Below are positions 1 to 57,700 of a stretch of 64,000 nucleotides of DNA, piece after piece. The translations under genes and the position numbers were made by a program. Source of the DNA: Polytrichum commune (lineage: Eukaryota; Streptophyta; Polytrichopsida; Polytrichales; Polytrichaceae); contig OX485803.1 in the NCBI GenBank assembly GCA_950295325.1, positions 65,611,554-65,675,553 on the forward strand. The letters are read 5' to 3'. Under the pieces are notes generated by a model, which ran no database searches, was not told the DNA's origin, and saw nothing but the letters and a program-made list of their open reading frames with translations. How positions within the stretch are numbered: the first letter of the stretch is position 1; every line of letters begins with the position of its first letter.

Positions 1-241
1 CCTTCACTCCTTTGATCGTGAAAAGGTCGGTGGCGAACAAGGTGGTGATCAGGCATACGATGATACCGGAAGCGCTGATAAGGAGTGGGAAGCACATGGC
101 AACGAAGTTCCTGTCTGTTCCGAAGGAAGACAGTGATGAAATCACTAAAGCGGCGCAGGTAGACTCAGCGAAGGATCCAAACAAATCGGCTCCCATTCCC
201 GCAATATCCCCGACATTGTCCCCAACGTTGTCAGCAATCAC
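1..241 (-). CDS. AVP1: H+-pyrophosphatase coding exon 3 (cut by window edge)
   Basis: The exon starts with GTG (Val) directly after a CAG acceptor and reads [20 protein letters not shown], then a helix ([20 protein letters not shown]). It is in phase with exon 2. It continues past base 1, so its end is unknown. Confidence 0.92.
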
Positions 242-3156
242 CTGTAATGCACATACTCGTTTCGTTAATCTTCAACCATCTCAGTAGCCAAAGACGTACT
301 ATATTTGAAACCACAGCTTCTATAATTGACCGTGACACCGAGTTGTTCTGTGGAATCACTTGGCTTCAGAAGGTGGAAAACAAAATATCAGCATTTAGTG
401 CATCTGTCTGTTTTTGGTTCATCAATAGCCAATCACGTCATGCATCATTCCGCATCTGATGCGTGGCCACCATTACGCGTATCTCAGAGAAAGTCTCCAC
501 AAAGTTTATAGAATATGGCTTCAGGCAATATTGAGTGTGTCAACATTGACAATGCCCACAAGCATTGCCCTCAAAATAGTAAGGAATATTGAGCATCACA
601 AGCCAGATCCAATAGAATTGACAATCGATTTCTTGAGTGAAGATAAATATGAATACCGGCATAAATTAAGCCAAAAGACGTACATGGCTTCAGACAATAT
701 TGAGTTTGTCAGCATTGGCTATGCCCTCAAAATAGTAAGGAATATTGAGCATCACAAGCCGGAAAACTTCGAAATGCCAAAATACGCTATATCCAATCAA
801 ACGATTCCAATGGTGCCAAGTTTCCGGTTTTGTTACTGACAAAGAACGCAAACTCACGACAACCCACCCTCCTACTTGCCGAACTCTCATTGTAAAAGAA
901 ATAGCCTCAGACAGTCATGTCTAGAGCATTGGCACAGCCTCAAATGGTACGGTCAGATAAGAATCATCACAAACCGCCACTTCAACTACATAAAATGTAT
1001 ATTGCAATATGGCTCCACGGACGTAGAATACTATCCCAACCCAATGGACACTAGATGTAGACATTATGAGGGGGCTTACATATCAGCATATCCTCACAAT
1101 GTCTAGGTCCGTGCCCTCCGGACGCAGTTTAAGACAATAATTCACTTTTTCCGTCGTGTCTAGAATAAATGTATAGGACACAGAACGAACAACAAATCAG
1201 CGGATAAGGTTCCTTGGATTGGCTTCAGATAGTGTCAAATTGTCAGCATAGCAAATGCCTCAAATGGTACGGACAATTCCTCATCATCACAAACCAAACC
1301 GCTTAACAAGTTCTACGACAATACAATAAGGGTACAAACCATCTTAACATGGGAGACAAACTTGAGTTACAAAGCAGCAAACTTACAGCTGGGTTCCTGG
1401 GATCGTCTTCTGGAATATTTTGCTCAATCTTTCCGACCAAATCAGCACCGACATCAGCAGCCTTGGTGTAGATACCGCCACCAACACGTCCGAAAAGAGC
1501 TACAGATGATCCACCCAGACCGTAACCAGTGATAGCCTCGTACAGACCAACCCAGTCATCTCCAAAGTACAACTTGAAGACCAAGATGGTGATGAACAGA
1601 ACAATGAGGCCGTTGGCGGCGAGCAAGAAACCCATAACTGATCCAGATCTGAATGCAACAATGAATGCCTTTCCAACACCCTTGCGTGCCTCCAAAGTGG
1701 TCCTTGCATTGGCGTAGGTAGCAATCCTCATGCCAAGGTATCCTGACAAGGTTGAGGTCAGGGCACCTAAGATGAACGCCACAGTGCTGAAGAATGCGTT
1801 GGCAATGGATGAGGGGCAGCTTATGGTCTCGTCAAAGTCGCATGGCACCCTATCAAAACTGAAGCCTCCGACGGAAGCAAGGAATACAAAGATGATCACG
1901 GAGAAGATACCCATGAAGATACACAAGTAGTAGTACTCGGTAGCGAGGAAAGACTCGGATCCTGTAAAGACACATGTCACAATAAGTGAGCCCGCCTAAG
2001 CACATTTCATTTTCTCCAGAAAACACCAGCTGCACCGAAACACTCTCGGTATGAGAAACTCAATATGCCCACAACTCAGATCAAAGAATCCGCATTGCTC
2101 GACGCAACCACAAATACAAATTCATATATCTAATCAAATAACAGACCAGTCCAGACCAGGCTAGCATCTTTGTTAAATGATCCCATTCGGCACCATAGCT
2201 AGAATATAACCAGATCCTGAATGTCAACAAACATAAACCACGCGTCCACAACATATACGAGAACCTTGATTTGTTTTAAATTATAAATGCGCGAATATCT
2301 CGACATCTCAACAAACACAACCACGGCTTTCAAGCACAGCATGCTGCAAGCAGCCAGAAATGCACCAATCGCTTACAGACAGAAACAGGCACGTAGATCG
2401 CATTTCTAACTAGGACGAGACCAGACCAAGCCAAGCTGACTGTGAAGCGCAAACATAATTTAAGACCAGCTCACATTGGACACCAAATCTAAAAAGACAG
2501 ATACTTGACTCTAGATCACTCTGCATGTAACCCTTCAACCTATACAGGACTTTCATTTTACGTCAAGGACCTCAGTCAAAACCACTCGCCTCTCGACTAT
2601 ACAACTTAAGACATCATATCTAACATACAAACCACATAGGAAACGGCGTCAATGTCTAAAAAGCTCGCATTGCGAAACCTAAACCTCCTCATTAACGCAA
2701 GAAAACTTAAGATGGGAGAAGTGGACCCTCGTGAACAAGGTCCGCATTCCGATAACAAGGGAACTAGTCACCTCGTCAACTACACATCTGAGATACAGTA
2801 GCTTAGGCATACAAACCACATAAACAGATAGACACCGCTCAAACTACCTAAAATAACAACAACCAAGTATCTAAAAATCTCACATTGCGAATCCTAAACC
2901 CCATCGTCAACACAGAAAGAGAAAAAGTTGATAGAAGCGGACCCTCGTGAATAGCAGCCTGTATCTCGGCGCACTTGGCGACAACGCTATGCTCGTCGAC
3001 ACCGTCCTCGTTAACCTCCATGTAGCCATTGTTGCTGTGCGCTCCTCCGCCAACGGAGACCTGTGAGACGATGTACCACTGGACAAGTGCGAACACAATG
3101 CCCACGACGCACGATGCTGGCACAAAGGCCAGCACGAACGTCGCTCCCAGCACCAT
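1..3156 (-). CDS. AVP1: Vacuolar-type H+-translocating pyrophosphatase (type I), 5' part of a spliced gene
   Basis: Membrane pump of the vacuole that couples hydrolysis of pyrophosphate to proton transport into the lumen. Three exons are joined on the minus strand (3156-2943, 1961-1387, 241-1), giving about 343 residues of a family that is usually near 765, so the gene runs off the left edge. The start ATG (3156-3154) has an AACCATGG context and is followed by a hydrophobic first helix. The joined frame contains [10 protein letters not shown], the catalytic DVGADLVGK motif, and across the exon 2/3 junction [15 protein letters not shown], another conserved Asp-rich pyrophosphate/Mg site. Exon 2 ends at a perfect GTAAGT donor and exon 3 begins after a CAG acceptor. 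The exon 1 donor (GAGG/GTCCGC) is weak. No stop or frameshift is seen. Whether it is the K+-dependent form depends on residues outside the window. Confidence 0.95.
242..1386 (-). repeat. H+-pyrophosphatase intron 2 with degenerate internal repeats
   Basis: A 1145-base intron. On the plus strand, variants of a block that begins TGGCTTCAGA and ends AATATTGAGCATCACAAGCC recur near 515-615, 685-775, 905-990 and 1215-1300, with a shorter start near 360. The first two copies are near-identical over their second half. The intron therefore grew largely by tandem duplication. No ORF here is credible as a gene. Confidence 0.7.
1387..1961 (-). CDS. AVP1: H+-pyrophosphatase coding exon 2
   Basis: Exon of 575 bases encoding several membrane helices and the cytosolic catalytic loop. 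[20 protein letters not shown] (about 45 to 25 residues before the exon end) is the family signature. The acceptor is a TTTACAG tract. The donor is GTAAGT at 1386-1381. The reading frame is uninterrupted. Confidence 0.93.
2600..2955 (-). repeat. Diverged tandem duplication spanning the exon 1 / intron 1 boundary
   Basis: Segments 2600-2745 and about 2800-2955 share order and wording, for example TAACATACAAACCACATA-like, CATTGCGAAnCCTAAACC and GGACCCTCGTGAA. The second copy includes the real end of exon 1. The first copy is therefore a decayed pseudo-boundary in intron 1, with a second CACGAGGGTCC donor-like site. Confidence 0.6.
2943..3156 (-). CDS. AVP1: H+-pyrophosphatase coding exon 1
   Basis: Encodes 71 residues plus one base. 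There is a short hydrophilic start, a transmembrane helix ([15 protein letters not shown]) and an acidic loop ending [11 protein letters not shown], the typical run-up to the second helix. The last base (2943) joins GA at the start of exon 2 to make a Gly codon. The preceding donor sequence is unusual for a plant intron, and a diverged duplicate of this boundary lies at 2661-2745. Confidence 0.88.
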
Positions 3157-16907: not shown

Positions 16908-17970
16908 GGGGCGGTTTACACTATGGACCATGAAGTTGTCCCACGGCCGTCTAAGCGATGTGATTGGACGTTGAAGTCGTCCCGGGACGACTTGGGTTTA
17001 CACCAAGGAAAAAATGGCAGAGTGACCACGGAGGTTGAGGTCCACAAAATATAAATTTTTAAGCCTACTCTATCCACTGCCATGGTCCAACGGGTTTTCC
17101 GTTGGGACAAGCAAAAGAGGTGGTCCGGGAAAAACAACAAGGGCCCATGTTAGAAAAATGCCGTTTTAATGATTTTTTTAAAATTTTAATGATTTTTTTT
17201 CTGACTTGATTAATGATTTTCTTTGGCTACAGTTAGAAGGCTGTAATATTGTAAATACATATTTCCGTTATGGTTGAAAGCACAGTAGAAAAGGCCCGTT
17301 TTTTTGCAAGTAACCCTAAATTAAGTTTTTTTTCTTCTCAAATACGGATCTAACCTCTCACACAAAAATCTGAATGTATTGTGTGTCACTCAAGTTCGCT
17401 TTCTAAATCCATTCTCCGTCCATGAACCCAACAATAAGCGGTCTACGAATCCAATCATCCGTTCTTGACTCCATATACTCCTCTCTCTATACCCCATATT
17501 CTCATAAACCAAGCTCAAAATTGCTAACTTCTCCCATTCTCCTTGCAAAATCAGCGTTTGAATGTCTACCACATGCTTTACGAGCATGTACAAAAACATG
17601 TACAATCCTAAAAGCAAAACAAATGTCCTCCTCCTCTCCTCCATTGCTTGCTGAAATTTTAGGTTCAAGCAAGCGAAAACTACAAGACAAATGAAGAGAA
17701 AAGAAGTGAAGAGAAGAGAAGTCAATAGAAGTGAAGAGAATGGTCAAACTTGATTTTTTCCAAAAACTGCCTTTTTTTTTATTAAAAAAATTAGTACCCC
17801 CACTTTTTGGTGCATGGTCATTCTTCATGGTCCACATTCGGTTTACACCTAGTGAAGGGCCCATGAACCATGAAAACTAATATTTTAGTAACTCGGACCA
17901 TGGAAGTCGTCCCACGCAAAATAGGCCTCTTACGTGAGACGACTTCATGGTCCATAGTGTAAACCGCCCC
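16908..17970 (-). mobile_element. PIF/Harbinger-type element, subfamily 3, copy 1
   Basis: A 1063-bp element with near-perfect termini GGGGCGGTTTACACTATGG and its complement, flanked by TTA on both sides (16905-16907, 17971-17973). Its ends are reverse-complement copies of those of the element at 18211, so the two lie head-to-head. On the minus strand the interior holds a possible transposase fragment (17390-17690). It is therefore probably an internally deleted derivative. Confidence 0.85.
17390..17725 (-). pseudogene. Possible PIF/Harbinger transposase N-terminal fragment
   Basis: A 111-codon minus-strand frame inside the element at 16908. Its last third reads GYRERSIWSQER, then FVDRLLLGSWTENGFRKRT and a stop. 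The pattern of Arg/Trp followed by a Trp and an Arg-rich end resembles the segment preceding the DDE domain in HARBI1/PIF transposases. The first third is hydrophobic and probably 5' noncoding. The DDE domain itself is absent. This is recognition by pattern only and could be chance, but the host element has the right TTA duplication for this superfamily. Confidence 0.35.
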
Positions 17971-17973
17971 TTA

Positions 17974-18207
17974 GTTTCAACTTACTTTGAGTGGGTTCTG
18001 TCAGGTCGTCACAACTGCTCTATATATTGCACACGATACAACTTTCCTCGGCCATTGAATGACAACATTGCGAAGTATTTTTGGTCCGGAAATGATCACT
18101 TTTCAAGCTAATATGACATCTGAAGTAACAAACATATAATCACCGAGATTTTGTTTGGTGGGACCACCTGAAACACGGAAGAAAAAAAGGGGGTTGGGGT
18201 GGGGGTC
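17974..18207. other. Spacer between two opposed element copies
   Basis: A 234-bp unique spacer between the two head-to-head PIF-type copies. No gene. Confidence 0.4.
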
Positions 18208-18624
18208 TTAGGGGCGGTTTACACTATGGACCATGAAGTTGTCCCACGTAAGAGGCCTATTTTGCGTGGGACAACTTCATGGGACGACTTCCATGGTCCG
18301 AGTTACTAAAATATTAGTTTTCATGGTTCATGGGCCCCTCACTAGGTGTAAACCGAATGTGGACCAAGAGGAATGACCACACACCAAAAAGTGAAGGTGC
18401 TGATTTTTTTAATACATGCCCAAAAAGGGCAATTTTGAAAAAAAAAATTAAGTTTGATCATTCCTTGTATTCTCTTGGGCTTCACTTGCCTTCACTTCTT
18501 GTTAAATGTGTCGAAGATGTGGCTTGCAAATCTTCTCACAACAATTTTTTTTAAATAAAATAAAATGAGCAATTTAATTTGTACATGCTCAATGTAATTT
18601 ACATGTGACATGTACCTTGTGTTG

Positions 18625-19348: not shown

Positions 19349-20013
19349 GATGAACGAGACACAAATTCACCATTATCTTTTGGTATATATAGAGAGAGAT
19401 CATAAAATCCATGTCAAAACCATGCACTCTATGAATTTGTGGGTCATCTCTTCGCTTAAGAGGCGTTTCATTACATTGATCCAGGTCTTTGAAGCTAATC
19501 TCAATGTGCAATCGTCTTTAAGAAATTATCATTCCATTTACATCACATTCAAGATGACATGTTTGCTCGTCTACATCAATGCCCTATTGCATGATTCGAC
19601 ACAAATTTGGGAATAGATGCAAGAGGCCTTGCCATAATTTATAGTAGGCGTGAACTCATAAAGATGCAGTAACGACAATATATGTAATGGATGCCTACTA
19701 TAACACATGGCAAGGCAATACATAGTCATTGTGTGACGCAGTGGTCATGCCATGGCAAGGTCATCCATTATGCAAGGTGATCTCGCACTAATTATGTGTT
19801 TTGAATCTTACAAAAAATGAATGCAAAGAGCGAAGTATCTGAATTAGGCACATCCACCTTGGACATGTCAACACTATCCCGTAGCCTGCCAACAACTACA
19901 TACATTGACATGAAAATGGATATGAAATACTTGCACTAATTTCAACTACTTTTTAACAATATATCTAACTTACTCACGGTAGGGCTTCGTAGTTTGCCCG
20001 CAATGCTCACAAC
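19349..20013. other. Stretch with a small fold-back repeat, no gene
   Basis: At about 19626-19718, CCTTGCCATAATTTATAGTAG and GCCTACTATAACACATGGCAAGG-like arms form an imperfect inverted repeat. Nothing else is recognised. Confidence 0.5.
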
Positions 20014-20016
20014 TTA

Positions 20017-20507
20017 GGGCCACTTCACACATGAGACTAAGAGCCCGTGCCATTTGTACTTGAAGCACTCTCATTGGTGGAAAAGGCAGAGCCAATCCAA
20101 GTTCACCTCCCACTCCGCTTGAGGAACCAACGGAGCATGTGAATGCACGATGGATATAAAGCCTACATGGATTCCTACATGGCATCGAATGGATCATGTT
20201 GCATGGTCACTTGGACTACTTTCAAAAACCACCTCTTGGAGGTAGGCCCAACACAAAACCGCGAGACCATGGCACTCCAAATGCCCACAACTCTTGGTTT
20301 ATTCTCTTCTATTGTGTGCGAGGATCCACATGAACACAAATACATTGAAATAGCACTCGGTTGAGGGCCCGGTCACATATGACTTCACAGTACACTTGAG
20401 GATCCGTGACCACACTCCATGGTTTTGGGACGGCCTTTGGACACTTTCTTTTGGGCTCTCACAATCCCATCATGGTCACGGCTCTTGGCTCGTGTGTGAA
20501 GTGGCCC
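20017..20507. mobile_element. PIF/Harbinger-type non-autonomous element, subfamily 4, copy 1
   Basis: A 491-bp element beginning GGGCCACTTCACACATGAG and ending CTCGTGTGTGAAGTGGCCC, with TTA on both sides (20014-20016, 20508-20510). It is non-coding. The interior is shared with copies at 42123, 51143 and, in part, 20741, including TTGGAGGTAGGCC and TTCAAGCACTCTCATTGG. Confidence 0.88.
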
Positions 20508-20740
20508 TTATGGAGCCAGAAGTACCCCAGCTGTTCGAGTGCACAAAAGGATTCTGGGCGTCGGATGCTAGGAACCGGCGGCTGAGATTGATTTGGTCAC
20601 CGTCAAGGTTTCCAACAATCTGACGCCTCTCACGTGTGTGTGTATGTGTGTGTTCTCATGCATGTTCATGCTGTCTTCACCACTGGGTGCAGATGGAATG
20701 GGTTTCAAAATATTCCTGTTTTCTGCCATAGTTTGTTTCA

Positions 20741-20935
20741 AGGCCACTTCACACATGGGCCAAGAGCCGTGACCATGAAATTGTGAGAGCCCAAATGGAA
20801 GTGTCCAAAGGCCACCCCAAGACACCTCCAAAATCATCTAGTGTGGCCACATACTTCAAGTGTGGTGTAAAGCCATATGTGACCGGGCTCTCAACCAATT
20901 GCTATTTCGATGAATATCTATTCATGCGGGTCCCT
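20741..20935 (-). mobile_element. Truncated subfamily 4 PIF-type element
   Basis: TCA then AGGCCACTTCACACATGGGCC starts a reverse-complement copy of the right half of the element at 20017. Similarity fades near 20935 and the other end is absent. Confidence 0.7.
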
Positions 20936-42093: not shown

Positions 42094-42122
42094 CGTCTCG
42101 CTCTCCCTGTGTCATCGGCTCA

Positions 42123-43047
42123 AGGCCACTTCACACACGAGACTGAGAGCCCAAGACCAGTACACTTCAAGCACTCTCATTGGTGGAGAAGGCGGACCCA
42201 ATCCAAATTCGCTTCACACTACGCTTGAGGGACCAATGGAGTATGTGAATGCAAGATGGATGTAAAGTCTACATGGATTCCTACATTGCATCAAATTGAT
42301 CATGTTTGATGGTCACGTGGACTATTTTCAAAAACCACCTCTTGGAGGTAGGCCTAACACATAACCGGGAGACCATGGTGCACTCCAAACGCTCACAACC
42401 GTTGGTTTATTCTATTTTATCATGCGTGAGGACCTACGTGAATAGAAACTCATCGAAATAGCATTTGATTGAGGTCCCGGTCACATATGACTTCACACTT
42501 CACTTGATGGTCCGTGGCCACACTAAGGTAGAAATACCATAACCCGTGAAAATAAGGTGATTCGCATTGAAGATCTCGTCTGACAATCATGAGATAATTT
42601 TCCAAGATCGACGAGAAGGATTCATGAAGAACGCAAGTTGTTTCATATTTTTCTGCCCTATACAAAAAATGCTATAATTTTTCAAAGTGGAAAGTTGTCA
42701 AACCCCCTACTCGTTCACTAGATTCTTCCTACACCGAACATGGTAATCCACATTTCCATAGAGAACATCGCCTAAATCGGTTACCTCATGAATACATTAA
42801 CACTTGACTCCCATTGGTTACACTAAGTGTACACGCATTGAAGTTGCCGCCGAACCATGATCCGTTCTAGAAATGGCACTTCACCATTATGACGGCGGTC
42901 TAGTGCACGGCTAGAGGGTGGTTAACAGGTTATGGTATTTCTACCTTACATGATGTTGGAGGTGTGTTGGGACGGCCTTGGGACCCTTGTCTTTTGGGCT
43001 CTCACAATTTCATGGTCACGGCTCTTGGCTCGTGTGTGAAGTGGCCC
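42123..43047. mobile_element. PIF/Harbinger-type element, subfamily 4, copy 2, interrupted
   Basis: Ends AGGCCACTTCACACACGAG and CTCGTGTGTGAAGTGGCCC, with TCA on both sides (42120-42122, 43048-43050). It totals 925 bp because a 421-bp TA-flanked MITE has inserted at 42526. Without it the length matches the sister copies at 20017 and 51143. Confidence 0.88.
42526..42946. mobile_element. Tc1/mariner-like MITE, copy 2, nested
   Basis: Same termini and length as the element at 24883, with TA on both sides (42524-42525, 42947-42948). The sister element at 51143 shows the uninterrupted target as AAACTACATGATTTTGG, which proves insertion at TA. Confidence 0.9.
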
Positions 43048-43050
43048 TCA

Positions 43051-44680
43051 TACATTATGCGATAACTCCCCCTTCTCCGTACTCCTGTTACCTTATATCT
43101 TATTATTCAGTCAATGATGGTGGTGCACCAGAGCCTGGACTTCAACTTACCTGACCTGGCTCCACATGGGCGATGGATGGGCCACATCAGCTCAAGCGGC
43201 TGGACAACTTTAACTCCTCCCATCATGGCCAGCATACGCGATGTGGCCCTGACACGCGCCTTGATTGAAGGGAGCCTGTGGGCCAACAGGAGGTTCATGC
43301 ATTACCGAAAAAAAGGTGCTTCCTCGTTCACCTTTCCTGATGCCGAAATATATGATTTCCACGTGGGATGTGAATGGGTCCCAAGCAATCAGAGACCGCC
43401 ATGTGGCGACCGGATCCGTAGAAGCCGAGGAAGAAGGAAAAACTGGAGGGTGTTGTTGTGAGGGACAGGTTTGAGTTAGAGCCCCGGATGCTACCGATCA
43501 AGGTATGTTTAAAGAATTTGGCTCGATTTGGGGTGTCAAAGGCCTTGTTGTGACTCATAGTAATTTCATGGGTGGTTACTTGGAAGGTTAGAAACCATAT
43601 GGGCATTATCTCTTGATTTTTCCTCGGGCTGTGTTGGTTCTCCTGGGGTGGTTGTATGTTGTTTTCTTCTTGCAATTGGTTTTTTAGTTTGTGCCGAAAA
43701 AGGAGAGACAAATTTAGAGGAGAGTTTTCGATGTTGTTGTGACGAGAGGTTTTGGATGAATTTGACACGGTTTGTTGTGTGAGAGGCTTTGTTGGTATGG
43801 TCACTTGGAAGATTGGCCCGGGATGGCACCATAATTTGATCCTCCTTCGGTCCCAAAGTGGGAGTTTACAATTTGTACTCGTACTTTTGGTTACCTTTTG
43901 GTGATCGGACGTGTTCAGCTTGTGCCATCGGAAAAAGAAAATGAGATGTTGTTTATTTGCACCTAATTGGTTCGTTACAGTCGTTCATTACAAAGATGGG
44001 AGAGAAAAAAAACTGGAGTTTGGATGCGTCGACAACCAACAAAATTGCGTGCACGCAAATCAATCTCTTTATGACACATACTTTCGGTGTCCATTTTTGT
44101 ATTTGTGAGTTCCACAACCAAAATTCATAAGATACTCATATGAACCTCATGTATAGCCATATCACTTTCACGTTCCTCATATCGGTTTCTTAATGTACTC
44201 GTTCAACTTATAATTTGTTGTGAAACCCCCTACAATCTTGGAATGCTCAAAGTATTCACAATAGGTGCACTCATCTATGCAACAATGCACATCCTCAACT
44301 TTAACTCGACAAAGTGGGTTGGAGGATGTGCACCGTTGCCACCGCATATCCCTTCACCACTATTGTAGAGGTTCCAGATAAGGGCATAATAATAACCACT
44401 ATTGCATCCCACCACATTTCCTTTCATATTGGTCAATGGTGATTTAGAAGGACCAAAACAATGAGGGCGTTGTTTTAAATATATTATGGTGGTGGTGGTG
44501 GTGGTGCCTATGCCAACATAGTCCAAATGCACCCCTGCATGATACTCCTTGAGCTCTACCACCGTGATGTGGAGTAGGCATTGGTAGGAGTGGAGACAAA
44601 CACCGGTTTCGTTAAAAGTGCAATTCAATATGTAAAAGTACACATGAACAAATTATTGCAAACGCATAGATTTCAATTAA
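43051..44680. other. Stretch with a GC-richer block, no recognised gene
   Basis: 43090-43480 is richer in GC and has a 115-codon plus-strand frame (43114-43461). A second frame in the same block contains MISTWDVNG, faintly like the start of a LINE endonuclease domain, but nothing further supports it. A (GGT)n run lies at 44484-44505. Confidence 0.35.
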
Positions 44681-49789: not shown

Positions 49790-50955
49790 GTTTACATTGG
49801 GAGGGGGGGGGGGTCTTTGCTAGGTGAATCAAAGTTGGGACCCACAACTCTTGGGTGGTTGCATTTAAGCCCTTCCTACCTAATTATAAAATGTTGCCGA
49901 CCTTGTTCGAGCTCAAGAAACTTTTGCCTTTCATTCTTGAAGGGTTGCTTGCCCATAAAAGCCATGTTGATTGCATCTCACTTTGAAGGCTCAAAATGTA
50001 GGTCCATGTCCACTTACATGGTAAGCAATTGACTAGATTCATTACCTGGAGAAAAATGTCAATAACAAATCTTCCATTAAATTTGAAAGAAAAAGTGAGT
50101 TGTTAACGAGGTGATAAATAAAGATTATTTAGCTCTTTGATTTTAATAGAAGGTAAAAAATAATCCTTATTAAATAATCCTTATGAAAAGAATTAAAACT
50201 TGCCACTTAGGTCAAAACTTAAAAACTTCATATTTTATTTGAAATATTCAAGTGGAAACAATGAAGAGACATTTAGACATATTGATAACTACCTTCTTGA
50301 AAATCAACAATTTAACCTTTATTGCTAATGAGGTGATGAAAATTTATTTTTAACCTCACTGAGATTGATATGAGGCGATGAATAATCATTACCTCATTGC
50401 AACTAATGAATTTTCAATATTTCAAGGAAACTCTTCAAAATGTTCTTTTCAAGATTTTTGATCATGTTTTTGATAGAGTATGAAAAAATTGACCTCAGTG
50501 GTAAGTATCAATATTTTTCATAATGATAAATATTCACCTTTTATGGAAATCAAATAGCTATTTATTTATTTATCACCTTATAATAACTATTTAAAAGGGT
50601 TTTCTTTCAATATAATTGAAGATTCATTATTGACATTTTTATGCATGTAATTACATCTAGTCAATTGCTTACTATGTAAGTGGACATGGACCTATATATT
50701 AGGATTTGAGCCTTCAAAGTGAGATGCAGTCAATATGGGTTTTGTTGGCAAGCAACTCTTCAAGAATGAAAGGCAAAAGTTTTTTGAGCCGGGGTGGGGT
50801 CGGGCAACATTTTTTAGTTGGGTAGGAAATTTTTGGGTGCAACTTCCCAAGCGTTGTGGGTTTTGGTTCTTGGCCTTGATCAAACCTAGCACCCCCCCCC
50901 CCCCGCCCTTGCATGTTGAAATGGCTCGTACAAGGGGGGGGGGGGGGGGGAAGGG
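49790..50955. mobile_element. Long fold-back element with about 320-bp inverted arms
   Basis: The left arm 49790-50110 and right arm 50600-50955 are inverted copies (TTTTGCCTTTCATTCTTGAA, GGTCCATGTCCACTTACAT, GTAAGCAATTGACTAGAT and their complements). Poly-G or poly-C runs sit near the outer ends of both arms. The AT-rich centre has no gene. No clear target duplication. Confidence 0.78.
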
Positions 50956-51142
50956 ATAGCATCCATCAATTCAAACTATCATCACTAGAGTGACGAAATC
51001 TATCTATGTATCTATATATGAAAACTTATTGTGATGTTAATTTTTTTTTCAAGAAATTTATTATTGGTTCTTGAAAAAGATTTTGAAAAATAGGCAGTAT
51101 GTTGTAAAAATTATGGAGGTAACATGCGTGATGTTGCACTTA

Positions 51143-51599
51143 GGGTCACTTCACACATGAGACTGAGTGCCCATGACTAGTGAACTTCAAGCACTCTCAT
51201 TGTTGGAAAAGGCGGAGTTGGTCTAAGTTCACTTCACACTACGCTTGAGGGACCAACAAAGTAAGTGAATGCAAGATGGATTCCTACATGGTCAGTTGGA
51301 ATATTTTCAAAAACCACCCCTTGGAGGTAGGCCTGACACAAAATTGGGAGACCATGGCACTCCATAATCTTACATTTGTTGATTTATTATATTTAATCAT
51401 GTGTGAGGACCTTGCGTGAATAGAAATTCATTGAAATAACATTTGGTTGAGGGCCCAATCACATATAACCTACACTACACGTGGGGGCATGTGACCAAAC
51501 TACATGATTTTGGAAATGTCTTGGGACGGCCTTTGGACACTTCTTTGGGGCTCTTATAATTTCATGGTCATGACTCTTGACTCGTGTGTGAGATGGCCC
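51143..51599. mobile_element. PIF/Harbinger-type element, subfamily 4, copy 3
   Basis: A 457-bp element with ends GGGTCACTTCACACATGAG and CTCGTGTGTGAGATGGCCC, and TTA on both sides (51140-51142, 51600-51602). It preserves the empty target for the MITE nested in the sister copy at 42123. Confidence 0.87.
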
Positions 51600-51799
51600 T
51601 TAGTTTCTTGCTCCTAGGCCAAAGGTTTAGTTTTTGAGAATCATACCACTAGGCGTCCAACATTTCGTGACTTAATTGTTTTCATGACTTAATTGTTGTT
51701 TTAAATTATTGATGAACTAGGAACTAACAAATATAACTAAAATATGATAAAAACACACATAAACAACACATCTCCATATGTCCCCCCCTTGGCTGACTA

Positions 51800-51910
51800 T
51801 GGAGTCCCGTCAAGTAGCTAGGACCAATGCCAATCCAAAGGGCATGAATAATGAAGAATTGCCCCGCAACCATCGAGTGTGGTGAATGTCATTTCAAGGA
51901 ATTGTAGGCT
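51800..51910 (-). pseudogene. Reverse-transcriptase motif remnant
   Basis: The minus strand reads MTFTTLDGCGAILHY and, one frame over, FMPFGLALVLAT then stop. Ty3/gypsy reverse transcriptases have (K)TAF-T-R-x-G ... MPFGL-x-NAPATF at this place. Only a short piece survives. It sits about 150 bp downstream of the methyltransferase, which gives the domain order. Confidence 0.5.
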
Positions 51911-52008
51911 GGGTGCAGTATGAACCCCATCTTTAATCGACTATGATGTTTGGCTATCAGATTCCAAAGAATTAAATCCGCCGTCTCACGTTTGATCGTG
52001 TCTCTAAA

Positions 52009-53202
52009 CTATAACTCATCATTATATACATCATTATATATTATTTTATGCAATGCAAGGCGTAAACAAACATTCCACACCATGGTATTCAGATCCATGG
52101 TTTGGCCCAACACGAAGTGTTGTTGGCCCTCAGAAAGGCTAGGAGTTGTTGTGGTGCCCGTGCGAAATCCCATGGCACGTTCCCATACATCAGCCAATGG
52201 TTCGGTATGGATTTTGGTGTGATCATCCCACACCATGCTAGGTCCTGATTGCGGAATGTCAATGATTGTGGGAAAATCATAAAGGTGGGGAAGGCCCTCT
52301 GTGGTGCCCCCACCTTGTAGACTAATGCCAATGGGGGTAATTCATCTTGAACAACCGGCAAAGAGGTCTGGTGTGGATCCAACATGTCATCCACCTTTTG
52401 ATCAAAAGGTGGAAGCATTGCAAAAAATGTTGCAGCTAAAGTGGATGAAGGTGCAAGGTTAGTCCAAAGCCACTGAGGCCGGTGGGAATAAAAATCAAAG
52501 ACTGTGACATCCACAAAAATGGGATCACCAAGGTGTTGACAAATATAATGTTTGCCTTCCAACACCTTGTTACGAGAATCTCCCAATAAAGGTACATTTT
52601 TTAATATGTACCCTTGGGAGGAAGGTTGGTGGGCATACCACCACTGCATGAGCCGGATGAGATCCCTCAAATAACTAGATCTTGGATCCTCCAACCCTTG
52701 GCCCGCTTCAGCACGCGAGTGGCTGTGGCAGGGCCATCCCGCTATCCACTAGATCCACGTGACCCAACCTTTGTAAGTCTGCCTCGCTAATATGTGTAAC
52801 ATCACGAGGGAAACGTGCAAAACACCCACGAATGGCAGTTGGATCCAATTGTTGTGGGTACAACACCATCAACTGGTGGATATGGTGACGAGCCACACGT
52901 GTGGACACCTAACTGTCATCTATATAGACATACTGACGAACCGTGAGACCAATTTCCAACATGGCCGTCAGTCCTGTCCCGATGCCCCCAAACAGTTCCA
53001 CCAAAGTAATCCCTTCGTCTGGCGGATGCCATGAGATAGTATGTGCCAGTGCCGATGAGGTATCACGGACGACTGGTGTTGTAGAACCGAAAGAGAGAAC
53101 AATGTCCTTGCACCTTCGGAATAGGTCGGCGGAATCGCGCCAGGGACAGCAGGGAGGAAGAGGATCTTTGGGATGACGCACCAATACATCCTTAGGTGGC
53201 AT
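52009..53202 (-). pseudogene. C5-cytosine DNA methyltransferase domain in the retroelement
   Basis: Minus-strand reading gives motif I, LVELFGGIGTG (52975-53000), the AdoMet-binding loop. After a stop comes VSTRVARHHIHQLM. A single extra G near 52747 shifts the frame into AGWPCHSHSRAEAG, the catalytic Pro-Cys loop (motif IV; PC at 52728-52733). Motif VI reads KNV at 52601-52593 instead of ENV. Motif VIII is HRPQW. After another shift near 52236 comes ERAMGFRTGTT and FVLGQTMDLN, equivalent to motifs IX-X. The order matches bacterial-type and DNMT C5 methyltransferases, which add a methyl group to cytosine. The Lys for Glu and the frame breaks mean this copy has no activity. Confidence 0.82.
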
Positions 53203-53391
53203 CTGCCGTTAATCCTCAATACTTTCCATGAATGCCAATGACTCCTCCAATAATGCGGAAGCGTATGGTAATGTATCCACACTAGCACCACATCCAAAAA
53301 CCATGGATAAGGATGCTATGGTCGCGGATGCCGTGAATGCCACAAAAATAAGTTCCCTACAGCCGTCTCTAGCCAACCAACTAGGTCGGAT

Positions 53392-53739
53392 TCAAACTTC
53401 CTCAGTCCAGTTGTCCAAACCAAAACTAAGAGGGTAGAGTGCTTGCTGACTAACTAACATATCGTAGTTGGTTGCATCTGTCAACGCACATTTGAGAAGA
53501 AGAGGTGCGGGTGGATCTCTAGGCTTTACGCGGAAACTAAGTTGTAGTGGCTCCACAGTGTAACCAGTGGCCTGCTCAACATGGCCAATAGAGATGACGA
53601 TGGTAAATGGGCAAGAAGTCAAATCATCGACCGTCAAGTGTAATTCCTGGGCAAGCCTTTTGCCGATCATAACTGGTTGTGTCCCCGAGTCCATCATCAC
53701 ACACTGGGATGCAACCCAAATAACATTGCCCCAGCCCAA
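53392..53739 (-). pseudogene. Retropepsin-like aspartic protease domain
   Basis: VMMDSGTQPVMIGKRLAQEL contains the catalytic D-S-G-(T/A) triad typical of retroviral-type proteases, with the usual following hydrophobic strand. TNYDMLVSQQALYPLSFGLD matches the C-terminal (N/T)YD-x-L(V/I)G region, with the Gly replaced by Ser. It is 115 codons long, right for a retropepsin. It processes the polyprotein in an active element. Confidence 0.75.
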
Positions 53740-54227
53740 CTAACCACCAAAATGCCGGTATCATACACCATACACATGACGCCATGTCGAATGCCGCGGC
53801 GCTTGCGAACAAGTCTAATAGCTACATCCGACAGATAAGTTGCCCCCGTGGATTCGGATGAGTCGTAAGATGTGGTTGACCCCTTGTCATCTGAGGTGTG
53901 TGCGTCAAAAGACGCAATGGCGTCCGCCGCAAGCCTCGCTCGTTGTTTGGCCATTTCCGCGGGATCCTCAGTAGCAAGGAAATATGCAGTGACTTGAGCC
54001 ACGGTGAGAAAGTATAAAGATGCCTTGTCTTCCAAAATCCTATCTGCTAGGTGAAAAACCTTAGCCGGTTGGATTTTGGGTGACGACCACTTCATTGCTA
54101 TAAATAAAGGTATGTGCAACACCTTGAATGCCAATGTGTACACCATGTCGGTCGTTGGATTCGAAGCCTCCATGCTCGAATATCGGCCACTGATAGATTG
54201 GATAACATCTGCCAATCCAAAAGACAA
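53697..54227 (-). pseudogene. Gag-protease linker of the retroelement
   Basis: A 176-codon open frame, the longest uninterrupted piece of the element. It has no known motif. It contains KASLYFLTVAQVTAYFLATE and an acidic/Ser-rich tract (FDAHTSDDKGSTTSYDSSES) and ends by shifting frame into the protease near 53735. It is interpreted from position between zinc knuckle and retropepsin. Confidence 0.55.
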
Positions 54228-54358
54228 TGGCAGACGTGCCTGATCAATTTAATCCAGGGGACCATTGTCCCGAGCCGTTAAGGTCTCTACAGGCTCCCAT
54301 GTGGTCGAAGGTGCGGCTCGTGACACGGATTGAGCATGTGTCACAGCTGCCGAATTCA

Positions 54359-54685
54359 TCACCTCCCCCGAACCCCGAACATATAATAATCGGGAGTTGA
54401 CGAACTAGGCTTAGCTCCGAGTGGAGCTGGTGATTCCAAGATTTGGCTAGATGACGCCAAATTCTTGAACCTCTCCTCCAAGGCGCCAAACTCTGCCTCC
54501 AACGTTTTTCCCCGTTTGGAAAAAGGACGATTTTCTGGATGGAGAGCGAAGCAATTTTCCACAGCGTGATTGTTCCGTCCATAATGGGAACACTTAAACT
54601 GCTTCGGTAAATGTTTACCGGCCTCCTTCATTGAATTGTTAGCGAGAATGCCAAGCCAAGGAGGAGGCTCCTCACTTAGGAGCAT
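54359..54685 (-). pseudogene. Gag-like segment with a zinc knuckle
   Basis: A 108-codon frame with FKCSHYGRNNHAVENCF. The spacing fits a CCHC knuckle (C-x2-C-x4-H-x4-C) in which the second Cys has become Tyr. A predicted coiled or charged stretch follows (KTLEAEFGALEERFKNLASS). The protein then shifts frame near 54365 into a segment reading MNSAAVTHAQSVSRAAPSTT. Such knuckles bind the genomic RNA in retroelement Gag. Confidence 0.65.
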
Positions 54686-54764
54686 CTCTCCAACTTCTAA
54701 GATTCATTCATCCAAATCTAAATGGATGAAATCCTACAAATAAGGTGCGCCGCCCGACGTTGTA

Positions 54765-57700
54765 TACTGTGACATCTTACCCATCTTAACGGTGACCTAT
54801 TTTAGTGTAAAAAATTGCAATCATTGTCCTCTTCTATTGAAACATGTGCCACAGAAACACTTGCGTTAGGCGGTGATGAAGCCTCTCACATAATTGACCT
54901 CCCATTTTTCTTAGTAGTTGGAAACTCCCATTACTTACATCTAGAATCGTCGTCAATAACAAATAAATCTAACAAATAAAGGTTGTCTTGAAGGTATGAA
55001 TGGTAGCTAATAACCACATTTGTCTTCTCCAACGCGTAGCTATGATGCTAAGCCTTGCAACAACAAGCCCTTGGTTTCTTCAACAATGATGTCACACCAT
55101 TATTCCTACACAATACCAATGTCGCAAGTAAGTTTTTTTACTTTTTTTTTTTGGTTCTGTTTTTTTTTAAAGGGGGGAGGGGGGTGGGGAAGATGAACAT
55201 GAATAGGAATGATGTATGCTTACCTTTGTAAGAGTATCATTTGGAAATGACCCTATAGGTGATGCCCTCTTTTACAAGAAATACTTGAAATTAATATTGC
55301 ATGAAGCCCACACTCCCAACCATCTATTTGAATTGGGACCTTGCATTGGAGCATTGGGTTGTGCATGAGACTCTCATAGGATGGAGATGCCTTATTAATG
55401 CCCCTTGACGATGCCCCTTGCCTTCTAAAAACACTATGTGAATGCCTTCACACGAATGATGTTGTGGTATTGTTGTATTGAATCAAAATGAAAGGTCAAA
55501 GTGTGGTCAATGATGACAAGACTTCACAAGATAGTTTCCCATATGCAATAACCAATGCTTTGATGTCAAATGTGAATTTTTCAAAAAATAGCTTGAGTAA
55601 ATGTAGGTACTGCTGGAAATGGCAAAATTATTTTGACATGAATAAAGGGAATATGATGGCAAAACAACCATTGGTTATGGAATAACTGTTTGTCTCCCTA
55701 TGACCTCAAAGACAAACATACCAAAATGAAGATGAGCTTATGAAAAACATGGCATACACACACTGGTGACTTTGACCATAGGGAGATATTTGTGGGCAAT
55801 CCTAAACTTCAAAAAAGCAAGAAAACAAAATGAACTAAATCCCAAAAATAAATAAATGAATACAAACCAAGTATGAGAGTATAGTGAACTTATACAACAA
55901 AAGTAGACGATGCGGAAGCAAAGCAAAGGATGTTGTTGGTAGAGAGGCGAGGCAAAGGGAGGAGATAATCAAAGAGTGGTAGCAAAAAAGTTATGTGCTC
56001 CTCCTCACAATTTGTAGCTGATGATTGTTCTCGAGATCAATCACCCCCCTTTGTAGGACAATCTTAAAAGTGTGGCATATGACATCATGTAACTGCCATC
56101 CATAACACATACGTGTTCCTGACCATGTGCCACCTGAAAATGTCTTATGATGTTATGATTTCACATATCTCAAGGGACATGTGTTGTTTAATAAGGATAT
56201 AATCATGTACCATGTACCATTGTGATGATCCATGAAACATGGTGAGTTGGATCATTGTTTTGGGGGCCGGGGCATGGGTGTGTTTCTTGTCAAACACGAC
56301 AATTGGCTCATCCTACATGGTGTTAGAAAGGCATATTGCCACAACTAGCGGTGGTTGGTTTACCCATCTTCATTTAAAGACCTTGGCTCAAATAATGTGA
56401 AGATGATGTTAGTGCTTGGTGTACACTGTGTGGTAATGCTGGATAGTGAGATGCATGAGGCATGAAGGTCTTGGCGGGTGCTAAGCATTTCAAATTCTTC
56501 ATGCAAAGGTAAAGCTTATAAACGATGAGTTTCAAGTGTGGAGGCTAGGCTTTGTAGATTAGGAACTTATTGGTTATTAATAGGGGGATGTTTAGGAGGC
56601 TACAGTTGAAGTTCATCATGTAGTGTAGATGCTCAATAATAAAAGGTTCATGTACTTATAATGAGCATGTTCAAGTCATACATGGCACGCATCTAGACAT
56701 CCTTGATAGGACATTAATTTAAGTTAAGTGATGAATGTCACATTTAAAGCCCATTTGTGACAAATGCAAGACCCACCATATACAACACCAATTCCTAAAT
56801 TTCAAGGATTTAAAAGTGGTTGCAACTGTATATTCAAAACTATATATCTATATATAATTGATTTCAATCACTTAATTAACTTTTCTTTCTTCTTCTTGTA
56901 CTTGGAATTATAAAATATTTACCCAATCAAATTAGAGGTGAAGTGATTTGATTTATCTTGTAGTTTTAATTATATTATTATGGAGTACTTGTAAATGATT
57001 AGGTGCATATCAAGGACAATGGTCCTTACTCCATTTGAATAGATGTAAGTTAAAAATTCATACTCACAACAAGGAAGTAGGGTTCCATTATACAAGGCTG
57101 ATTTTGCTTATGTTATTTAGAACATGTCAAATATGTGTAAGATGACTAGATTTTGCACACATAATACATGTCATAAACTACACATATAATAGTGGCCCAA
57201 TAAAATGGATCCCTACTTCCTTGTAGTGTCTTGACAACTTTCTCTCCTGCTTATGTCGACTCCAAATAACTTGAAAGCCTCTAATATATGATCTATGATA
57301 TATATTTGATTTGAGTTGATAGTACGGACTCACATGCAGTTAAGGGTTAACTTACTTGATCGTGTTCTAGGAAGAGAAGGATTTATTGCATGCAAGCGTA
57401 ACCCTCATCCATCCGACATAAAAATCTTAAAATAGTACGCAACTTGGAAGTACAACTTTTTAAAATAAATTTGACAAGAATGTGCTAAGTTAATTATGAA
57501 GCTGGATATGGAAAGGAGAGTTATCACACCTCACCCCTTTTCTAAACCTCACTCAGCCTTGTGGGTTATAAATGCCCACACATGTGCAGTTTTGGTAGGT
57601 CATCAAAGTTACAGCTCCTTCCAGCAACCTTTATGATGCCATAAAAGCTAGAAAGCATGCTTTGGCATTCGAAAAGAGCATGCAGCTAGTATGAGGTTTA

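Follow-up and report, generated by a model that had tools for sequence, protein, structure and literature searches.

The window, the whole analyzed stretch of 64,000 nucleotides, carries on its minus strand, from ~54774 to 51723, the remains of a decayed Ty3/gypsy-type retrotransposon. The preliminary description had placed these remains at 51790..54690; repeat pieces at 54774-54639 and ending at 51723 widened that extent at both sides. Translation bore out the order given there, which runs from the zinc knuckle, here a remnant, through a retropepsin to C5-methyltransferase motifs I, IV, VI, VIII and X, and added motif IX between the last two. The element opens with a remnant of 5' terminal repeat A (54639..54774), comprising its first ~136 nt and beginning TGTCAC; it is 83% identical to the corresponding repeat in a copy on C5 (L051 282-417; L050 502-640). 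Translation and tblastx matches to locus L009 (621-725 and 756-899) identified the end of gag and the zinc knuckle (54365..54628), which is present as described but has lost its second cysteine (CSHY...H....C); most of gag upstream of it is gone. The gag-protease spacer (53742..54383) has one in-frame stop and a frame change at each end, and was recognized by tblastx and by blastx to L009 ORF1 292-506 (39%) and P0030.

The retropepsin MMDSGTQPVMIG (53392..53739) ends at an in-frame stop and shares one frame with the downstream linker and the start of the methyltransferase; in this region, relic positions 53700-53152 are 55% identical to L009 1560-2108. Frame reading and alignment to L009 and P0033 defined the protease-methyltransferase linker (53041..53391, one in-frame stop). 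The DNMT3-type C5-methyltransferase domain (52045..53040) holds motifs I (FGGIGTG), IV (PCH), VI (KNV for the catalytic-motif ENV), VIII, IX and X in unrearranged order, interrupted by one stop and two frame changes. It is adjoined by a 3' untranslated region (51779..52023) containing a purine tract at 51790-51781; positions 52023-51723 matched L050 154-452, which covers the untranslated region, the purine tract and the beginning of repeat B at the 3' end of that relative, at 83.7% over 301 nt, and 51942-51904 matched 34 of 39 nt of L009 6750-6788, which lies 3' of the L009 ORF2 stop. The reverse transcriptase (RT) motif MPFGL reported earlier at ~51845-51831 falls within this aligned untranslated region, where Pfam found no RT, and is therefore false. 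The element ends with the first part (~56 of 107 nt) of 3' repeat B (51723..51778), whose start was set by position and of which 51774-51723 are 82.7% identical to the second B copy of L050 (843-894).

The view that this copy is dead was well founded. As read from the translation, its retained coding part is broken by in-frame stops and frame changes, four of each, and the whole RT-RNase H-integrase-PHD frame has been deleted between ~52045 and ~52023. In addition, 20 of 58 shared CpG sites had decayed to TG or CA, versus 77 of 580 other C/G positions, which points to germ-line methylation of the relic, though the host could be the source of that methylation.

Single broken pieces of the relic scored weakly (Pfam PF00145, E 0.23; Asp_protease_2, E 0.016), both below the curated cut-offs, and the methyltransferase pieces joined with X still fell below the cut-off of NCBIfam dcm (E 4e-5). 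Against the PDB, the joined methyltransferase gave 36 matches at E <= 10, 35 of which were DNMT3A/B/C or DRM (best E 0.0013). One broken frame and an 1150-aa sequence, used as queries against proteins, gave no match. We accepted the identity of the relic despite these scores because its relatives settle it: 41 protein relatives had E <= 0.01 and identities of up to 72%, a second protein search gave 38 homologues (35 of them new), and blastx of the raw relic DNA matched P0033 at 71.9% over 331 aa (E 1e-157). Relic DNA also matched elsewhere in its own genome at 79-86%. From its anatomy and family assignment, the relic is almost certainly an old dead copy of a Ty3/gypsy-type family that acquired a DNMT3-type cytosine methyltransferase.

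Searching the 408 Mb of the same genome yielded 353 candidate methylase places, of which 123 were scored, all above the cut-off; at least one of these is a host DRM exon. A vacuolar H+-pyrophosphatase gene, with two long matches of 74% and 76% and a third of 49% to Arabidopsis AVP1, and snoR117 mark the host as a streptophyte. The supposition that the family has members elsewhere in the genome proved right as to intact copies. Ten copies, picked for long open frames, were examined in detail. Their ORF1, encoding Gag, protease and DNMT, was 1386 aa (1356 aa in one copy), and in seven of them an intact ORF2 of 1047 aa encoded RT, RNase H, integrase and a PHD finger. All ten had TGTC...GACA ends, which are also found in L051/L050, and 4-bp target duplications; duplications were assessed on intact copies, the 3' end of the relic being truncated. 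The repeats were laid out as A-ORFs-B-A-B in eight copies and A-ORFs-B in two, so split rather than forming the two complete direct LTRs of a typical Ty3/gypsy element. In those eight, the copies of repeat A within an element were 98.8-99.8% identical, and in the second-subfamily copy on C5 (L051/L050; duplication GATG) the A repeats (334 nt) and the B repeats (107 nt) were each 100% identical as pairs. Such near-identity, judged by sequence, is a mark of recent insertion.

The genome holds two subfamilies, with old dead and recent near-identical copies side by side, and both the tree and the DNA matches assigned the relic to an older branch of the second. RT sequence lay behind the DNMT in eight of the nine second-subfamily loci long enough to tell (in two as a short match only; L038, L041 and L043 fell below that length and were left out), the exception being L055, behind whose DNMT no RT sequence was found. 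These counts led us to reject a sub-lineage without ORF2, and therefore the loss of ORF2 looks private to the relic.

Pfam analysis of ORF1 and ORF2 of L009 and L022 found the gag-protease-RT-RNase H-integrase order with an rve integrase, an order that the relic itself no longer displays. ORF2 matched PF00665 rve and H2C2, and its PHD finger matched at E 4e-10 and 2e-10, respectively. The protease matches (E 8e-4 and 1e-3) were below the Pfam cut-off, and no Pfam gag family matched either locus, gag being called by position and zinc knuckle. DIRS retrotransposons have a tyrosine recombinase in place of a DDE integrase and are not known to make a target duplication; with rve and H2C2 in ORF2 and 4-bp duplications, membership of that class was rejected. 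The coexistence of the DIRS-like layout with a DDE integrase may point to integration from circles or through cleavage at the palindromic B/A joint.

UAG-CARYYA is the leaky stop consensus of the tobamovirus type. The context TAG CAA YCA ended ORF1 in all ten chosen copies, a UAG-CARYYA-type stop separates the two long frames of L009, and among 24 further loci a first stop could be located in 18, of which 12 had TAG-CARYYA. It is very likely that the family makes use of this leaky stop. The main product would then be Gag-protease-DNMT, with a minority product extending into the Pol part, and the methyltransferase would be as abundant as Gag and travel in the particle. Protease, methyltransferase and RT occur together in seven of the ten copies and in L009, with a single leaky-type stop between methyltransferase and RT, and in P0068 an unbroken frame spans zinc knuckle, protease, DNMT and RT. 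The claim that the methyltransferase is encoded by a retrotransposon was thereby sustained by relatives, intact copies and tree alike.

The DNMT profile scored highest in the PDB against DNMT3A (79.8 bits), followed by DRM (56.1), HhaI (41.3) and DNMT1 (10.7). An AlphaFold2 model of the element DNMT (pLDDT 95.2, pTM 0.93) gave DNMT3 entries for 50 of 50 among the Foldseek matches listed. With the best profile and fold matches to DNMT3 and motifs I-X unrearranged, we assigned the enzyme to the DNMT3 family; its cytosine methylation activity is a prediction. A DRM type, in which motifs VI-X precede I-IV, was rejected on motif order and profile. The catalytic cysteine was kept in 72 of the 75 rows with a letter at that position. 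Motif IV reads ECQ or ECK instead of PCQ in distant relatives (11 of the 75 rows with letters), a change that may have altered or ended catalysis in them.

The relic methyltransferase fell inside the element family in the family tree (support 100/99, then 100/98), which used 71 of 79 rows (domain span >= 225 profile positions) and is weakly rooted, as its one outgroup (DNMT3A) is distant and several of its branches are long. A quick own-genome tree, with SH-aLRT support only, grouped it with 13 rows from 12 distinct places (SH-aLRT 99); its 29 own-genome rows represent 27 distinct places, L046 and L047 being the same as L011 and L016. These placements, away from any host gene, bear on the proposal that a fragment of a host methyltransferase gene landed by chance beside the protease. 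We found nothing in its favor, intact copies with the same domain order refute it, and the element differs from the sole host C5-methyltransferase exon seen, a DRM-type one at C2:4702859-4704659 in which motif X precedes motif I; we rejected a host fragment as the source and give it practically no credence. DUF3444 (PF11926), as a guide to native DNMT3, gave 8 matches, and the L068 and L069 neighborhoods (two pairs) had no methyltransferase match.

Between subfamilies, dN/dS of the DNMT was 0.11-0.13, and 0.11-0.17 over more divergent comparisons, by which coding constraint on the enzyme over the longer term is shown. Among the ten youngest copies the ratios were 0.57 for DNMT, 0.50 for protease plus linker, 0.48 for PHD, 0.25 for integrase and 0.12 for RT-RNase H, and a near-identical pair of subfamily 2 gave 0.43 for DNMT. 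In the short term a copy may do without its own DNMT, or most of these changes may postdate insertion. The gap between DNMT and RT-RNase H in young copies, like the ECQ/ECK variants, would suit a passenger DNMT that has become dispensable to most copies and is provided in trans by a few source copies. We consider this improbable given the purifying selection between subfamilies, the retention of DNMT in distant lineages and the third-position excess between the relic and L009 (127/93/235 over 368 codons).

The explanation we favor, as moderately probable, is a gypsy-type family with a Gag-level DNMT produced via the leaky stop, self-methylation and a PHD reader. By their sequence, intact copies begin with repeat A, followed by Gag with its zinc knuckle, the retropepsin, the DNMT and the UAG CAR YYA stop, and continue with RT, RNase H, integrase, PHD finger and repeats B-A-B. 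In the particle or the nucleus, the DNMT would methylate newly made DNA of the element itself at CG sites, and the PHD finger, as part of the integrase product, would read unmodified histone H3 tails. As both writer and reader of silent chromatin, the element would do less harm to its host and meet less pressure to be purged. That methylation of its own DNA is the main role of the DNMT is plausible, at somewhat short of even likelihood. More tentatively, we speculate that this is a self-marking retrotransposon, in which writing and reading, the two halves of a DNMT3-like enzyme, are split over two products, DNMT3 at Gag dose writing CG methylation on new DNA and the integrase-linked PHD finger reading unmodified H3, such that the element inserts already silenced. 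The placement of the DNMT with Gag ahead of the stop, at structural-protein dose, and its loose constraint in young copies would also accord with a role away from the element's DNA, either as a Gag-linked DNA-binding domain in particle assembly and cDNA protection or in acting on host loci (e.g., dampening host genes), with element methylation a side effect. The conserved catalytic cysteine and the low dN/dS between divergent copies favor a kept enzyme but are silent on which DNA it methylates, and we regard such a role as rather unlikely.

Plant chromoviruses, the chromodomain gypsy elements, carry a chromatin-reader domain behind the integrase in Ty3/gypsy Pol, as does the present family, in which the reader is a PHD finger and no chromodomain was among the Pfam matches of L009 and L022 ORF2. 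Chromodomain gypsy elements are named in PMC6338049. The closest known system is KnitGypsy-Dnmt3 of Klebsormidium nitens (PMC5890265), which likewise joins gypsy domains and an unrearranged Dnmt3 in one element, has repeats described as "the same as that of a DIRS retrotransposon", matched here by A-ORFs-B-A-B, and shares purifying selection on the DNMT. Its DNMT is reported within the Pol polyprotein ORF, whereas here the DNMT is the last domain of the Gag-protease frame, followed by a leaky-type stop; in the accessible text of PMC5890265 there is no mention of a PHD finger, of a stop of this type or of a DNMT on the Gag side. Among the protein relatives of the present family, most of which bear no species name, none was labelled Klebsormidium. 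No activity was seen for KnitGypsy-Dnmt3 in yeast, a result that de Mendoza et al. regarded as inconclusive (PMC5890265). SymbioDIRS-Dnmt3 and SymbioLINE-Dnmt of Symbiodinium are also retrotransposons bearing a cytosine methyltransferase, the former of Dnmt3 type with A-coding-B-A-B repeats as here; they belong to tyrosine recombinase or LINE classes (PMC5890265), whereas the present family has a DDE integrase (PF00665) and 4-bp target duplications. Streptophyte DNMT3 (PpDNMT3b, Yaari et al. 2019, PMC6453930) and animal DNMT3 share the unrearranged catalytic domain. Plant DNMT3 carries DUF3444 and animal DNMT3 carries PWWP and ADD, whereas in the present family the enzyme is fused behind Gag and protease, with the PHD finger on the other product.

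A retrotransposon with its own DNA methyltransferase is paradoxical because retrotransposons are a main target of cytosine methylation. With dead old and recent undamaged copies in one genome, the use of the enzyme by the element is open to direct study, and methylome sequencing alone can therefore ask whether new insertions are methylated from the start. Two features, the PHD finger and the placement of the DNMT with Gag ahead of a leaky-type stop, offer testable hypotheses on dose and targeting. Retrotransposon-borne cytosine methyltransferases have been reported from one charophyte and dinoflagellates (PMC5890265), in agreement with the reference to de Mendoza et al. 2018 in the preliminary description, and a 2019 review gave transposon DNA methylases as absent from land plants such as tracheophytes (PMC6338049). 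Relatives of the present family include named proteins from the liverworts Marchantia polymorpha and Calypogeia fissa. Viral contigs gave eight generic methyltransferase loci. In another lineage the DNMT is placed between RNase H and integrase, and the distant relatives P0063 and P0068 have DNMT and RT in one ORF.

Translation of the relic and alignment to its relatives indicated a single decayed element on the minus strand (~54774-51723), in which the zinc knuckle, retropepsin and methyltransferase motifs were present in the minus-strand order claimed in a preliminary description. On that strand, only the first 136 nt of terminal repeat A remain at the 5' end. Next comes the end of gag, its zinc knuckle damaged, which a spacer separates from the retropepsin; a linker then leads to a cytosine-5 methyltransferase (DNMT) whose motifs I, IV, VI, VIII, IX and X keep their normal order. 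The 3' untranslated region follows the DNMT almost immediately, with a purine tract and roughly half of terminal repeat B behind it. The protease, linker and first part of the DNMT share a frame, and reading the translation gave four in-frame stops and the same number of frame changes in the retained coding part. This copy lacks the reverse transcriptase (RT), RNase H, integrase and PHD finger altogether. An MPFGL motif (~51845-51831) had been assigned to RT in error, as it falls within the 3'-end stretch of the element. Window positions 51942-51904 matched 34 of 39 nt at 6750-6788 of L009, the first intact relative, past the stop of its second frame, and positions 52023-51723 were 83.7% identical over 301 nt to the 3' end of L050, a copy of the second subfamily in the window's own genome; these alignments ruled out an RT identity.

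No second copy of the family was found within the 64-kb window. Judged by eye, a MITE-like repeat bounded by terminal inverted repeats (GGGCCACTTCACACATG type) and TTA-like target sites occurs at 51138-51602, adjoining the relic just past its 3' end, and at 20012-20510, 42119-42525 with 42947-43051, and, in part, 20742-20933. Long imperfect palindromes resembling foldback elements (65-72% self-complementary) lie at 49799-50908, 17669-18527 and 20322-20933.

Isolated pieces of the broken relic gave weak Pfam matches, and the DNMT pieces joined with X matched NCBIfam dcm at E 4e-5, under that model's cut-off. Among PDB matches of the joined DNMT with E ≤ 10, 35 of 36 were DNMT3 or DRM. Among 5.8 billion proteins searched, 41 relatives were recovered, with identities up to 72%, and blastx of the raw relic DNA against a relative gave E 1e-157. 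In its own genome (408 Mb, with seven contigs of 42-78 Mb totaling ~406 Mb), the 41 matches listed for the relic DNA were the relic and 40 others at 79-86% identity (40 of 394 candidates scored; one place counted as two matches).

The PF00145 search of this genome yielded 353 candidates. All 123 that were scored exceeded the cut-off, and 19 of them had open frames of 1300 aa or longer. At least one scored place (C2:4702859-4704659; match C2:4703606) is a methyltransferase exon of a host gene, whose translation places motif X ahead of motif I and is thus DRM-type. Ten copies with long open frames were selected for detailed study. ORF1, the Gag-protease-DNMT frame, is 1386 aa in nine and 1356 aa in one, and is followed immediately and in frame by TAG CAA YCA in all ten. 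ORF2 is in the same frame as ORF1, with 1047 aa in seven copies and 1009 and 934 aa in two others; the remaining copy had no ORF2 frame of at least 300 aa. Pfam identified the DNMT and, below the cut-off, the protease (E 0.001) in ORF1 of one copy, L022, and RT, RNase H, integrase and a PHD finger in its ORF2. The gag assignment follows from position and the zinc knuckle.

In eight of the detailed copies, the 5' end carries A (~440 nt) and the 3' end B-A-B (B ~107 nt), with 98.8-99.8% identity between the A pairs; the other two (L018/L019 and L020/L021) are limited to a 5' A and a 3' B, without a direct terminal repeat. All ten, these two included, have TGTC...GACA ends and perfect flanking 4-bp duplications, and look like recent integrase-type insertions. 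The joint inside B-A-B, GACA-GC-TGTC, is a palindrome built from both outer ends. Cutting at the B/A joint would produce A-ORFs-B from a one-LTR circle and A-ORFs-B-A-B from a two-LTR circle, and both forms were observed with 4-bp duplications. We infer integration from circles, or cleavage at the B/A joint.

The tree resolved two subfamilies in this genome and placed the relic with the second (99 SH-aLRT), twelve loci of which were 79.6-82.4% identical to it in DNA over their longest alignments. In a second-subfamily copy on contig C5, the A pair (334 nt) and the B pair (107 nt) are each 100% identical and the target duplication is GATG, and therefore this subfamily also moved recently. Sequence encoding RT was present 3' of the DNMT in eight of nine sufficiently long second-subfamily loci, two of them with a short match only. 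Across 24 further loci of both subfamilies, the first stop 3' of the DNMT was located in 18 (the script did not locate the DNMT end in six); TAG-CARYYA occurred in 12 of these and a different stop came first in six. Ten of the 11 second-subfamily loci with TAG-CARYYA had TAG CAA TTA.

L009 was the sole locus returned from a scan of prokaryote genomes, a 9285-bp contig of a cyanobacterial (Synechococcales) MAG whose ends overlap by 127 nt, and was taken as misbinned eukaryotic DNA. Eukaryote-type retroelement sequence was also seen in an Obscuribacterales protein (P0003), and both bacterial-record copies are probably contamination. The first frame of L009 runs across the contig ends and encodes Gag, zinc knuckle, protease and DNMT; the next encodes RT, RNase H, integrase and the PHD finger. 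The two frames are in phase, with TAG CAA TCA between them, a context that fits the UAG-CARYYA consensus of tobamovirus-type leaky stops. There is no other TAGCARYYA on the coding strand of the contig, and the RNA 3' of the stop has a folding z of -2.8, with 3 of 200 shuffles folding equally well. Elements with a Gag-stop-Pol layout mostly terminate, with a minority of readthrough. Readthrough into Pol is predicted here from the sequence around the stop and from the frame ends that copies share, which suggests that most translation would end after the DNMT and a minority would read into Pol. Given this putative leaky stop, the DNMT would be present in the particle at Gag level.

Against a profile built from 18 element DNMTs, DNMT3A scored 79.8 bits, DRM 56.1, HhaI 41.3, DNMT2 ~35 and DNMT1 10.7. 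The AlphaFold2 model of the L009 DNMT domain (pLDDT 95.2, pTM 0.93) matched DNMT3 entries in all 50 Foldseek matches listed; an earlier, poor model from fewer sequences (pLDDT 64.4) gave a list of the same kind. Of 75 rows with a letter at the catalytic position, 72 have the Cys, including those of the relic and DNMT3A. Over 368 DNMT codons the relic and L009 differed at 127, 93 and 235 first, second and third positions. DNMT dN/dS was 0.11-0.13 between the subfamilies, where dS of ~2.3 approaches saturation; against L009, dS was saturated and gave no ratio. Within the second subfamily, two pairs gave 0.17 and a near-identical pair 0.43. The ten young copies gave 0.57, which speaks against a strict short-term need for the DNMT; the other ORF1 values were 0.27 (gag), 0.38 (spacer) and 0.50 (protease and linker), and those of ORF2, from the seven copies with it intact, were 0.12 (RT-RNase H), 0.25 (integrase) and 0.48 (PHD part).

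DNMT3-type enzymes are capable of de novo CG methylation. The nearest solved structures to the L009 PHD finger were CHD4, PHF12, Cph2, UHRF1, KMT2D/C, KDM5A/B and PHF21A, several of which bind unmodified H3 tails. Because of this enzyme type and this resemblance, we favor a split, predicted from sequence, in which one element product would carry a writer (the DNMT) and the other a putative reader (the PHD finger). In the accessible parts of de Mendoza et al. (2018, PMC5890265), de novo CG methylation was demonstrated for SymbioDIRS-Dnmt3 of Symbiodinium, and the activity test of KnitGypsy-Dnmt3 of Klebsormidium nitens was called inconclusive by its authors. CpG sites of the relic were more decayed than other C/G (20/58 vs 77/580, Fisher p 1.4e-4), which points to germ-line methylation, by whichever enzyme.

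A wider search (best 7994 candidates scored) found 38 proteins, 35 of them new, with Marchantia polymorpha, Calypogeia fissa and Closterium sp. as named hosts. The six M. polymorpha proteins came from contigs of 0.17-27 Mb, and two (P0062, P0067) continue, by eye, into RT sequence. Three layouts were seen: the DNMT ends the Gag frame in the window's genome, L009 and Marchantia P0060; DNMT and RT share a single frame in P0063, P0068 and, by eye, P0025; and RNase H-DNMT-integrase-PHD is full in P0069, P0072 and P0075 and partial in P0038, P0073 and P0074. Proteins of the third layout form a single clade (100/98), and motif IV is ECK or ECQ, not PCQ, in five of the six. Pol similarity follows the same trend, L009 being 58% similar to P0063 and 39-45% to the third group over long alignments. 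For this tree, which includes no native streptophyte DNMT3, the simplest reading is a single DNMT capture and a later move of the domain, though there may have been two captures.

As far as the available text of each source goes, KnitGypsy-Dnmt3 came from one charophyte and has DIRS-like repeats (de Mendoza et al. 2018, PMC5890265), a 2019 review described land plants, tracheophytes for example, as lacking such elements (PMC6338049), and a 2025 MBE survey again gave streptophytes and dinoflagellates as hosts (PMC12344493). In the journal literature searched, as far as its text was available and with preprints and most subscription papers outside this scope, no report was found of DNMT-bearing retrotransposons in land plants or of a PHD finger in such elements. 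Compared with KnitGypsy-Dnmt3 as described in the accessible text, the Polytrichum family has the basic idea and repeat layout in common; it differs in where the enzyme is placed, in an added chromatin reader and in a wider host range.

A vacuolar H+-pyrophosphatase gene lies on the minus strand at window positions 2-3123, with snoR117 (1220-1295) beside one of its exons. Its exons matched Arabidopsis AVP1 at 74%, 76% and 49%, seemingly low values for a land plant.
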